Below are positions 25,459 through 30,530 of a DNA stretch of 33,001 nt, one piece after another. Under the pieces are notes generated by a model that did no database searches, was not told the origin of the DNA, and saw only the letters and a program-made list of their open reading frames with translations. Each line of letters begins with the position of its first letter. Position 1 is the stretch's first letter. The position numbers were made by a program, and so were the translations under genes. Source of the DNA: Thermodesulfobacteriota bacterium (GTDB lineage: Bacteria; Desulfobacterota; Anaeroferrophillalia; Anaeroferrophillales; Tharpellaceae). The stretch is from NCBI GenBank assembly GCA_024762675.1, contig JANTGZ010000018.1, positions 1-33,001 on the forward strand, read 5' to 3'.

Positions 25459-26763
25459 ATGCGGAAATTCAGCTATAAAGCGACCAATGCCGGGGGCGAT
25501 ATCAGCTCCGGCAGCTTGCCGGCCCTTGATGAACGCCAGGCTGCAGCTCTGCTGCAGCGCCAGGGATTGATCCCATTGCAGATTGCCTTAATGGATGGGG
25601 ACACAGTAAAGAATGCCGTCTCGCCGGTTGCGAAAGGGGCTTCTTATAAGCCGAAGCGTAAATCTTTATTTGCTTCCACGGGGCAGCTTTCCTTTTTCCC
25701 TGGGTGGCTTGATAAAATGCCTTGGCGCCGGCCCGGGGTCAAGGAGCTGGCCGGTTTCGCCGAAGATCTGGGACTTTTGCTTAAAGCCGGCGTACCTCTG
25801 AATCGAGCCCTGGTAATTCTCGTGGAATTGATTGAGAAGCCGCTTTTCAGCCGGGTTATGGAAAACCTTAGGGAACAGGTTAAAGAGGGCAGTACCTTTT
25901 GGGAGGCTCTGCGCAGCCATCCTCAGATATTCCCTCCGGTTTTTGTCGGAATGGTGCGAGCCGGTGAGAGTGGCGGGATTATCGATACGGTTTTAGGCCG
26001 CCTGGCCCTCTACCTCAACGGTATCAGGGAGTTGAAAGAGTTTCTGGTCGGGGCCATGATCTACCCTTTAGTGTTGACCATGACTACCGGGGCTTCGATT
26101 ATTCTGCTGCTGGCTTTTGTCCTGCCCAAGTTTGCCGCCATTTTTTCTGATATGGGGGTGGCTCTGCCTACAGCCACCAGGGTGATGCTTAATTGTGGTG
26201 ATTTTATGCGGGCTTGGTGGTGGGCTTTGGGGTTGGGACTTGGCGGCCTGATCTTTGCCTGGCGCCGTCTTTATCGCCATCCCCAGGGCCGTTTGCTGGT
26301 CGATCGTCTGGTCTTGCGTCTGCCGGGACTTGGCGGAATTCTTGTCAAGATGGATCTGGCCCGTTTTTTTCGGACCCTGGGGGCCATGTTGTCCAGCGGC
26401 GTGCCGATTCTTGAAGCCCTGCAGGTGGTCAGTGGGGTCATCAGTAATCGGATTCTTGAGCAGAAGGTTGCTCATCTGCAGGAAGAGCTGCGTCAAGGTG
26501 CGGTGATGTCGCAGGTTCTGGCCCAGGACCCGCTTTTTCCGTCTTTGGCGGTCCATATGATCGGTGTTGGTGAGGAGACCGGCCATCTCGACGAGATGCT
26601 CGATAAGTTGGCCGAGATGTATGACCGTGAGTTGAAGGTGACGATCAAAGCATTGACCTCTCTTTTCGAACCCCTGGTGATTCTCTTTATGGGTTTGGTG
26701 ATCGGGGCTATCGTGGTCTCCATGCTGATGGCGATTTTCAGTGTCAACGAACTGGGAGGTTAG
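25459..26763 (+). CDS. gspF: Type II secretion inner-membrane platform protein GspF
   Basis: A 434-residue protein with two copies of the T2SSF domain. The first includes FAEDLGLLLKAGVPLNRALV, FVGMVRAGESGG and the helix MIYPLVLTMTTGASIILLLAF. The second includes ARFFRTLGAMLSSGVPILEAL, AVHMIGVGEETGHLDEML and the final helix PLVILFMGLVIGAIVVSML. GspF connects the GspE ATPase to the pseudopilus base. It is about 30 residues longer than the usual 400-405; the extra length is a Lys/Ser/Phe-rich linker at about 55-95 between the N-terminal region and the first repeat. It starts three bases after gspE. The gene after it is not part of the secretion machine. Confidence 0.92.
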   Translation: MRKFSYKATNAGGDISSGSLPALDERQAAALLQRQGLIPLQIALMDGDTVKNAVSPVAKGASYKPKRKSLFASTGQLSFFPGWLDKMPWRRPGVKELAGFAEDLGLLLKAGVPLNRALVILVELIEKPLFSRVMENLREQVKEGSTFWEALRSHPQIFPPVFVGMVRAGESGGIIDTVLGRLALYLNGIRELKEFLVGAMIYPLVLTMTTGASIILLLAFVLPKFAAIFSDMGVALPTATRVMLNCGDFMRAWWWALGLGLGGLIFAWRRLYRHPQGRLLVDRLVLRLPGLGGILVKMDLARFFRTLGAMLSSGVPILEALQVVSGVISNRILEQKVAHLQEELRQGAVMSQVLAQDPLFPSLAVHMIGVGEETGHLDEMLDKLAEMYDRELKVTIKALTSLFEPLVILFMGLVIGAIVVSMLMAIFSVNELGG

Positions 26764-26771
26764 GAGCTCTT

Positions 26772-27197
26772 ATGAATAGTTTTGGCTCCCGCAGAGACGC
26801 AGAGGCGCTGAGTGGAGATGAAAACGAAATTGGAACCATTGTCATTGAGTCATCTATTGTGGTGCTTAGGGAACTTGGCCCGGGACTTCTTGAAACGGTT
26901 TACGAAGTGGTTCTTTGTCGGGAGTTGCAGGATAGAGGGCTAAAGGTTGAGCGTCAAGTTTCTGTGCCAATTCATTACAAAGGGATTAGGTTTGCCGAGG
27001 GTTTCAAGGCAGATATTATTGTCAATGATAAGGTTGTTTTGGAGTTGAAATCGGTTGCGCTGGTGACTGCGGCGCATAAAAAACAGGTGCAAACATATTT
27101 GCGCTTAACGGGATGCAAGCTCGGATATTTACTTAATTTCGGTGAGGCTCTGATGAAGCACGGGATTACCCGCTGTGTTAATGGGTTGGATGAGTGA
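26772..27197 (+). CDS. GxxExxY protein (PD-(D/E)XK-like) inside the secretion operon
   Basis: A 141-residue protein carrying G38-L-L-E41-T-V-Y44, the motif that names the GxxExxY family. FKADIIVNDKVVLELKSV follows, a PD-(D/E)xK-like nuclease core, and then KKQVQTYLRLTG and GYLLNFG. The biological role of the family is unsettled. The gene sits between gspF and gspG, where no secretion component belongs. Its first codons are themselves repeat-derived (SRRDAEALSGDEN), because CGCAGAGGCGCTGAG at 26798-26812 is repeated in inverse orientation just after the stop codon. The whole unit therefore looks like an inserted cassette. It is on the same strand as the operon, so it should be co-transcribed. 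Confidence 0.85.
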   Translation: MNSFGSRRDAEALSGDENEIGTIVIESSIVVLRELGPGLLETVYEVVLCRELQDRGLKVERQVSVPIHYKGIRFAEGFKADIIVNDKVVLELKSVALVTAAHKKQVQTYLRLTGCKLGYLLNFGEALMKHGITRCVNGLDE

Positions 27198-27229
27198 AGC
27201 TTTTTGCACAGCGTCTCAGCGCCTCTGCG
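26798..27229 (+). mobile_element. Candidate mobile cassette: GxxExxY gene between inverted repeats
   Basis: CGCAGAGGCGCTGAG at 26798-26812 and its exact complement at 27215-27229 bound the GxxExxY coding region. Similar CGCAGAG-type units extend outward on both sides (from 26788, and to about 27236). No transposase lies inside, so movement, if real, would be in trans or by recombination. No target-site duplication was identified by eye. Confidence 0.5.
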
Positions 27230-27281
27230 GGGGAAGAAATTAAATTTTTAAGTTAAAGAAAATGTTGAGGGAGATACAGTA

Positions 27282-27725
27282 ATGTGTAAACGGATTGCTA
27301 AATGCAGGAGAGATTCAAACAATCGGGGTTTTACTCTGATTGAGTTGTTGATTGTTATGGTTATTATCGGCCTGCTCGCCTCTTTAGTGGCGCCGACCAT
27401 GTTCAAAAAGGTTGGCGGGGCCAAACGCAAGACCGCTAGAGCCCAGATTGAACTGCTGGGAACGGCGCTTGATTCCTATAGGCTCGATAATGATATGTAT
27501 CCCACTAGCGAACAAGGTATGCAGGCCTTAAGAGTGAAACCTGAAGGAGCGAACAACTGGGATGGCCCCTATCTGCCCAAAGAGGTTCCCAATGACCCCT
27601 GGGGTAACCAGTACGTCTACAAAAGTCCGGGTGACCACGGTGATTACGACCTCTCATCCTACGGCGTTGACGGTCAGTCCGGAGGGGATGGGGATAATGC
27701 CGATATAAACAGCTGGGAAAATTAA
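27282..27725 (+). CDS. gspG: Type II secretion major pseudopilin GspG
   Basis: A 147-residue prepilin-like protein. After a basic leader (MCKRIAKCRRDSNNRG) comes the prepilin peptidase site G/FTLIELLIVMVIIGLLASLV with Glu at +5. The mature domain has the conserved GspG core: ARAQIELLGTALDSYRLDND, YPTSEQGMQAL, WDGPYLPKEVPNDPWGNQY and a C-terminal Asp-rich calcium loop (GDYDLSSYGVDGQSGGDGD). GspG polymerises into the pseudopilus that pushes folded substrates through the secretin. GAGGGAG lies about ten bases before the ATG. The GxxExxY cassette separates it from gspF. Confidence 0.95.
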   Translation: MCKRIAKCRRDSNNRGFTLIELLIVMVIIGLLASLVAPTMFKKVGGAKRKTARAQIELLGTALDSYRLDNDMYPTSEQGMQALRVKPEGANNWDGPYLPKEVPNDPWGNQYVYKSPGDHGDYDLSSYGVDGQSGGDGDNADINSWEN

Positions 27726-30379: not shown

Positions 30380-30466
30380 GGGGACATACCTCCAGGCCGG
30401 GCTTTAGCCCGTGACGGGCTGAGCTGTGTCCCCAGTCGGAGTGGGCGAAGCGAAGTTCGCCGCCAC
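30380..30466 (+). repeat. REP/BIME-like palindromic element between gspK and gspL
   Basis: GGGGACA (30380-30386) and TGTCCCC (30427-30433) form outer arms. Inside, AGCCCG/CGGGCT (30406-30411 with 30415-30420) and CGGGC/GCCCG (30398-30411) can form alternative hairpins. A second hairpin, GTGGGCGAA with TTCGC and CCAC (30441-30466, two-base bulge), follows. Outer GGGGACA/TGTCCCC ends recall repeats tied to REP-associated tyrosine transposases, from memory and without a search. With the tandem repeat that follows it fills most of this gap; I see no gene in it. Confidence 0.5.
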
Positions 30467-30473
30467 CCGCTGT

Positions 30474-30530
30474 AACTTAACTTTGAACTTTGAACTTTAA
30501 ACTTTAAACTGTGAACTGTGAACTGTCAAC
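30474..30530 (+). repeat. 7-bp tandem repeat directly before gspL
   Basis: From 30479 to 30527 there are seven consecutive 7-base units: AACTTTG twice, AACTTTA twice, AACTGTG twice, AACTGTC once. Partial AAC units lie at both ends. The changes are ordered in pairs along the array, as expected from stepwise duplication. The array ends three bases before the gspL ATG, replacing the place where a Shine-Dalgarno site should be. Confidence 0.9.

Follow-up and report, generated by a model that had tools for sequence, protein, structure and literature searches.

A GxxExxY gene between word-built inverted arms in a type II secretion operon: a candidate minimal mobile cassette

The gspF-gspG gap in the window and in related genomes

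The window, that is, the whole stretch of DNA analyzed, is an entire contig of 33,001 bases (G000:C18) from an assembly of 2.9 Mb in 217 contigs. The contig carries a type II secretion operon, in which a GxxExxY gene lies between gspF and gspG and is bracketed by inverted arms. The features are as follows.

25459..26763, + strand: gspF, upstream neighbor in the host operon (best family GspF, below cut-off; synteny)
26772..27197, + strand: GxxExxY (TIGR04256 / PF13366) coding region, 141 aa (open reading frame and profile matches)
26788..26812, + strand: left (5') arm, CC followed by the words CGCAGAG (26790-26796), CGCAGAG (26798-26804) and CGCTGAG (26806-26812)
27207..27231, - strand: right (3') arm, inverted, with the words CGCAGAG (27229-27223), CGCTGAG (27221-27215) and CGCTGTG (27213-27207)
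26788..27231, + strand: cassette consisting of arm, nuclease-family gene and arm (outer edges approximate; target-site duplication not recognized)
27282..27725, + strand: gspG, downstream neighbor in the host operon (GspG above cut-off)

The GxxExxY frame scored 132.2 bits against TIGR04256 (cut-off 35) and 133.4 bits against PF13366 (PDDEXK_3, cut-off 22), had no second Pfam match, and was the sole GxxExxY match found in this genome. Against the NCBIfam models, the upstream neighbor scored 379 bits for GspF, under the model cut-off of 424, and the downstream neighbor scored 169 bits for GspG, over the cut-off of 88.85. The inverted repeats that the initial annotation placed around the gene are present, with CGCAGAGGCGCTGAG at 26798-26812 and its exact complement at 27215-27229, and the arms proved longer than it had claimed. 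This exact 15-bp inverted repeat is the core of two longer arms, the left one being CCCGCAGAGACGCAGAGGCGCTGAG, which ends at 26812 and has its imperfect complement at 27207-27231; each arm is made of three 7-bp words separated by 1-bp spacers. A repeat search allowing up to 3 mismatches gave 5 matches in the window compared to 0.75 expected (100 shuffles, largest 4), and the two arms contain 4 of the 5.

The cassette was also described as lying in the direction of the operon without breaking it, and this agrees with an insert that is co-directional with gspF and gspG and would leave the host operon readable. The claim that the left repeat encodes the start of the protein held in part: the left arm is translated, as residues 7-14 (RRDAEALS), but the start codon, ATG at 26772, is upstream of the arm, 8 nt past the gspF stop. 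By eye, a Shine-Dalgarno-like AGGAG overlaps the gspF stop before this ATG. In the relatives compared, the GxxExxY start codon was found by eye just inside the arm (L058, for instance, has ATGAATGAAAATG), and the window ATG at that position is out of frame.

The gspF-gspG junction was then compared with those of relatives, as had been proposed. GspG profile matches were present in 57 of 59 genomes, the window genome included, and 30 loci were read. A GxxExxY match was absent from all 29 GspG loci besides that of the window, 5 of which show no gspF. None of 10 gspF-gspG junctions carried the gene, neither in the 9 same-genus genomes with such a junction (G001, G003-G007, G009, G011 and G012; the other three same-genus genomes yielded no gspF-gspG locus) nor in the single same-family genome (G014). 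The window gene is therefore not an old, fixed member of this operon, a reading ruled out by these 9 same-genus and 1 same-family junctions.

Other inserts and other sites were seen by eye among the relatives. The gspF-gspG gap of G007 contains a tract of CACAGATGGA-type repeats, whereas in G001 (L067) it contains an inverted-repeat insert of approximately 300 bp. An inverted repeat similar by eye to the one bracketing the G001 insert, GGGCGAAGCGAAGTTCGCCGCCACCC, is present in the window at 30440-30470, in the gap after a GspK-like gene (best NCBIfam family GspK, below cut-off). In G010, a GxxExxY gene sits in a different gap, between ends that resemble the window GspK-like protein and the open reading frame that follows it, which has no NCBIfam match. 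G006, G009 and G011 have the gene at one common site, followed by a frame that we take to be lspA-like.

Inverted arms and private words across GxxExxY loci

We collected 105 GxxExxY loci: the window genome and its relatives supplied 25, and genome_contigs supplied 80 across many phyla, as judged from record titles. These 80 scored best among at least 572 matches, and the sample therefore leans toward window-like proteins. The relatives gave 39 GxxExxY match rows, 30 of them with loci, of which 25 were used (the fragments L050-L053 and L060 were omitted). At least 80 nt of flank on both sides was available for 99 of the 105 loci, and these were analyzed. The 220 nt flanking each gene on one side were aligned locally, in inverted orientation, with the 220 nt on the other; the best alignment gave the inverted score, and 180 segments from the same loci served as controls. 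The median score was 23 for the 99 GxxExxY loci compared to 10.5 for the control segments. Scores exceeded the control 95th percentile at 87 of 99 loci and the control maximum at 22, and 12 loci were at or under the 95th percentile. Bracketing of this kind thus holds for GxxExxY genes in general. When flanks were instead paired with those of other GxxExxY loci, the mismatched median was 11 and only 38 of 99 loci exceeded the 99th percentile, the upper tail of this control being raised because all arms share a consensus. That consensus word is C-R-C-(A/G mostly)-R-A-G, and words and spacings differ from element to element.

A two-word motif, C-R-C-N-R-A-K, pointed inward on both sides at 63 of 99 loci compared to 2 of 180 controls. 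It pointed outward on both sides at 11 of 99 loci, 7 of which also had inward motifs and 4 of which (L047, L127, L143 and L148) did not. Neighboring frames, examined at 85 loci, were co-directional with the gene in 45 of 49 decided cases upstream and 29 of 37 downstream.

Both arms could be parsed in 63 of the 99 loci. In these, when a word of one arm was compared with words at other positions in the opposite arm of the same element, the difference was 0.66 of 7 letters, compared to 1.80 with arms reassigned among elements (0 of 5000 shuffles), and spacer sums matched between the arms in 59 of 63 loci, with 31.7 expected and a maximum of 45 in 5000 shuffles. In G065, a genome with Pirellulales in its record title, seven GxxExxY places were read, six of them with 5' and 3' arms matched by eye and with clearly different words; the seventh (L414) is a broken copy with the left arm only. 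In 29 pairs of nearest protein relatives, the changes in the arms affected one arm at 20 positions and both arms alike at 1. Quick gene conversion between arms is thus unsupported, and since changes are nearly always in a single arm, the long-term likeness of the words is upheld neither by such conversion nor by pairing.

Two other protein families served as specificity controls. Y1_Tnp (PF01797) loci of the same 59 genomes had the GxxExxY motif in 0 of 18 cases (18 of 30 loci were read, flanks were incomplete in L248 and L250, and loci were anchored on the open frame, so that a start deep inside a long frame would be missed). Y1-transposase-family frames of 331-334 aa at L248, L249, L255 and L257 start near GGGGTCA and end at TGACCCC, with the stop codon within the repeat. 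Loci of TIGR02436 had the GxxExxY motif in 1 of 24 cases (24 of 30 loci used), and 22 of 24 had inverted short-repeat arms made of other words, over the 99th percentile of shuffles. The CRCNRAK word class is restricted to the GxxExxY family among the three that were compared. Within that family, one word class is kept from Cyanobacteria to Verrucomicrobia, in proteins down to approximately 45% identity to that of the window. Because the word class stays while the proteins diverge, and the two other families are without it, we infer that the reader of the words is the protein or something linked to it.

These results bear on the description of the element as non-autonomous, which they do not support. 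A search for a transposase acting on the repeats had been proposed; Y1 was the transposase family tested, and no transposase was tied to the arms. Arms of this class accompany the GxxExxY protein, which is therefore the leading candidate for their partner.

The Sphingomonas fabD-fabG site and arms without genes

Among the best 80 of at least 572 genome_contigs loci, three Sphingomonas loci sit between fabD and fabG (names backed by NCBIfam profiles, fabD from partial sequence). We therefore took this junction from the 151 genomes of the genus of G059: FabD was found in 147, all 147 junctions were taken, and one had no fabG in reach. The GxxExxY gene was present in 83 of 146 junctions, with a shortened gap in three (L335, L397 and L401), and 63 had no GxxExxY match, five of these with a stretch of over 700 nt ahead of the fabG match. 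By eye, at least three gene-less junctions (L354, L367 and L386) hold remnants, which have lost pieces and show no clean excision. The nearest occupied and empty pair had a fabG distance of 0.078, and no pair was close enough to give an exact insertion point. Unrelated palindromic repeats were also seen by eye in the gap at L320, L326, L327, L341-L343, L372 and L380, so the fabD-fabG gap appears generally permissive.

Residents at this site differ even between close relatives. L261 and L262 have FabD proteins that are 98% identical, GxxExxY proteins that are 70% identical, and different arms. We compared protein, arm and species distances for 79 of the 83 occupied junctions (genes of at least 105 aa), with 118 protein columns outside the arm-encoded part and with fabG distance as the species control. 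Given fabG distance, protein distance had a partial correlation with arm distance of 0.40 for the 5' arm and 0.43 for the 3' arm (0 of 5000 permutations each). Species and arm distances were uncorrelated (r = -0.05 and -0.02), protein and species distances gave r = 0.15, and the two arms gave r = 0.79. Gene and arms thus move as a unit, and one such unit takes the place of another in this gap: their distances correlate, and species distance does not predict the arms. This correlation is evidence for exchange as a unit and not for recognition, because linkage alone would produce it; mutual information likewise found protein columns linked to the arms that were inseparable from lineage. The median dN/dS of 0.17 (278 usable pairs, 73 Sphingomonas sequences) shows purifying selection on the protein at this site.

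A search for other copies of the repeats, also proposed at the outset, found 18 places in the window genome besides the window element, of which 16 were read. At 9 of the 16, one end of a MITE-like repeat of approximately 250 bp was detected by script, and a few more degenerate ends were seen by eye. This repeat has CAACTTTCTGACTTG ends and an outward-pointing arm pair in the middle (L003, L007, L009, L015, L017, L018, L024, L026 and L028), and several copies lie at contig ends; the hairpins L020 and L022 are without CAACTTTCTGACTTG ends. A second genome, G018, has a MITE of 152 bp (L428-L445) with the ends GTAAATATTCGACT and AGTCGAATGTTTAC and an inward-pointing CRCRRAG arm pair in its middle. 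Of 19 places read, 18 had one or both flanks of this MITE, in diverged form at one of the 18 (L436), and an exact 8-bp target duplication was present at 9 of 11 places with both edges recognized. With many solo hairpins riding in such repeats in both genomes, we rejected the idea that they are non-autonomous copies of the GxxExxY element.

Because solo arms spread as MITE cargo, the genome-wide arm count says little about the nuclease. At least 6 arm hits were found in 18 of 23 genomes with a GxxExxY gene compared to 5 of 36 without (Fisher p approximately 1e-6), an association inflated by MITEs and based on a threshold picked after the counts were seen. The arm words were plentiful in 5 of 59 genomes in which no GxxExxY gene was detected (G005, G008, G012, G026 and G039). 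Near-identical copies within one genome were absent among 20 of 22 places in 5 multi-copy genomes (blastn, E 1e-10), so no recent hop was caught. By eye, no target-site duplication was recognized at the window or Sphingomonas elements, for which there was no close enough empty site. GxxExxY places numbered at least 572 in genome_contigs, 7 in plasmid records, 1 (confirmed) in viral_contigs and none in phage records, in collections that differ in size.

The predicted nuclease, its possible action and the alternatives

The structure predicted for the window protein had a pLDDT of 89. Its best structural match was SSO0001 (4ic1), which we take to be a Cas4 protein, with a Foldseek E value of 2.3e-4 and a modest TM of 0.41-0.55; a second comparison (VIA) gave Z 9.5 for 4ic1, with an rmsd of 3.8 over 102 residues. 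The next Foldseek matches were LHK-Exo and lambda exonuclease. The next VIA match was the restriction-endonuclease-like 3ijm (Z 8.3), and type II restriction enzymes, Hjc and a named Cas4 (4r5q) followed at Z 6-7, a range shared with unrelated rows. No PDB relative was found by sequence below E = 0.5, and PHROG 1706 ('CRISPR/Cas system associated') matched weakly (1.1e-4). Seven residues were invariant in 50 sequences (G36, G38, E41, Y44, D81, E91 and K93), the GxxExxY signature being G38..E41..Y44. The protein belongs by its PF13366 match to the PD-(D/E)XK nuclease superfamily, with a predicted fold like those of Cas4 and lambda exonuclease and with catalytic-type residues conserved.

Presence and absence at homologous sites, the mark of a mobile element, were seen at both gaps, with the gene in 0 of 10 gspF-gspG junctions of relatives and 83 of 146 fabD-fabG junctions. 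That a mobile GxxExxY cassette exists is, in our judgment, highly probable. Whether the nuclease is the agent of its mobility is an evenly balanced question, and we give an equal chance to the reading we prefer for the window, in which the element is a minimal mobile cassette of approximately 440 bp with one predicted PD-(D/E)XK nuclease gene whose product acts on its own arms. The nuclease, perhaps with one subunit per word, would recognize its own arms and nick or cut there, and repair or recombination of the broken end would then insert the cassette or swap it for the resident at the same gap. The cassette probably depends on read-through transcription, since the gene upstream of it mostly points the same way, and the host operon would stay readable. 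More tentatively, these cassettes could rank with the smallest mobile elements that are self-sufficient, and their restriction-like enzyme, a nuclease of the Cas4 and lambda-exonuclease type and possibly a trimer, would read the three words of each end by one subunit per word. Private words would then let mutually blind elements coexist while rivals replace residents at shared operon gaps, and TIGR02436 would be a second, unrelated system on the same plan; we regard this wider picture as possible but doubtful.

Several other explanations were weighed against an arm-directed nuclease. The element could be truly non-autonomous, in which case the nuclease gene would merely ride along while a transposase encoded elsewhere, or recombination by the host, moved anything that has arms. 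The cassette indeed has no transposase and no target-site duplication was found, and gene-less solo arm hairpins exist, many of them in the MITE-like repeats of two genomes. However, the word class follows the GxxExxY family (Y1 0 of 18, TIGR02436 1 of 24), and a single common mobilizer would not predict six elements of G065 with six different matched words; we consider this explanation unlikely. It is quite unlikely that the arms act as nucleic-acid structure, with a transcript stem that is processed so that the insert is tolerated in operons, as for 23S rRNA intervening sequences. Inverted arms, the prevalence of co-directional upstream frames, the location of some inserts within operons and the similar architecture of TIGR02436 four-helix-bundle genes would all suit such a stem. 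Against it, mismatches in the Sphingomonas arms showed no excess of G.U-compatible over incompatible pairs (98 vs 121), changes between close relatives were paired once compared to 20 single ones, pairing leaves the likeness of words at non-pairing positions unexplained, and Rfam had no match up to E = 1 in the window at 26600-27400.

Purifying selection, the different variants at one site across a genus, and the mostly chromosomal location where searched (1 viral_contigs place, 0 phage and 7 plasmid records) could instead reflect a selfish or defense-like unit, in which the nuclease is harmful unless the arms serve as binding or decoy sites, loss is punished, and spread occurs by ordinary gene transfer. 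No PADLOC defense family matched up to E = 0.01, however, the cassette holds no partner gene, and the 63 of 146 junctions without the gene, some with remnants, indicate that loss is tolerated, making this an improbable account. An ordinary fixed operon gene flanked by chance repeats is hardly credible: the frame is intact and the gene lies in the operon direction, but the lack of a match at this gap in the relatives examined and the family-wide inverted arms, with 87 of 99 loci over the control 95th percentile, rule against it.

For the arm-directed nuclease, known systems offer partial parallels. RAYT (TnpA-REP) genes occur with REP/REPIN palindromes in the available excerpts of PMC3116915, PMC8266576 and PMC3733652. 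Like the GxxExxY cassettes, they consist of one small gene flanked by inverted repeats, relatives of which occur at other places in the genome, and the repeat class goes with its own protein, although this is an analogy only. In contrast, the predicted GxxExxY enzyme belongs to the PD-(D/E)XK superfamily and RAYT is a Y1 HUH transposase, the arms are three 7-bp words and a REP is one tagged palindrome, and Y1 loci of the same genomes are without the GxxExxY motif. The cassette plan is similar to that of RAYT-REPIN systems, yet the Y1 transposase that defines them is absent. Insertion sequences and MITEs share terminal inverted repeats and presence or absence at homologous sites; the cassette differs in that its sole gene belongs to the PD-(D/E)XK superfamily and its arms are repeated words, and no target-site duplication was seen. 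PD-(D/E)XK nucleases of the Cas4, lambda-exonuclease and Hjc types share the predicted fold and the D..ExK residues, whereas the structural likeness is modest, sequence relatives in the PDB are lacking below the E value given, and the cassette has no partner gene. In the available excerpts of PMC2996986, Geobacter bemidjiensis has multicopy intergenic palindromes and direct repeats of 6-42 nt, one family of which also occurs inside genes; this likeness is one of description, and no gene is linked to those repeats there.

No description of a GxxExxY cassette was found in the open-licence PMC literature, where the available excerpts of papers mentioning 'GxxExxY' held nothing on repeats. Twelve exact repeat strings were absent from the same literature, and TIGR04256, TIGR02436 and 'IVP-like' were not found among the papers listed, nor were PDDEXK_3 and PF13366 among those listed for them (a weak test, as the two terms were required together). 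If the nuclease reads its own arms, a function could be assigned to many genes, across many phyla, that are annotated only as 'GxxExxY protein'. A class of short repeats found between operon genes in environmental bacteria could then be attributed to that protein, and the matching proteins and words of each genome would be natural material for working out a DNA-recognition code. If TIGR02436 is a second system on the same plan, this would point to a general class of 'word-armed' bacterial elements.

TIGR02436 four-helix-bundle proteins are presumably relatives of the S23 protein of 23S rRNA intervening sequences. Such an intervening sequence in Coxiella is the subject of PMC4990558, as far as its available excerpts show. 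The TIGR02436 loci resemble the GxxExxY cassettes in that a small gene is flanked by inverted arms built from short tandem repeats (22 of 24 loci), and differ in that the protein family is unrelated and the words are different, with CRCNRAK in only 1 of 24. The arms of these genes (L171-L200; for example, L194 at G000:C65:8588-8911) are of the GGATGAA, GTCAGTG, AGCTGAA, TCAAGG and GTGAGAA types. A run of TTTGAACTTTGAACTTTAAACTTTAAACTGTGAACTGTGAACTG words in a style like that of TIGR02436 arms is present in the window at 30476-30530, in the gap after the GspK-like gene.
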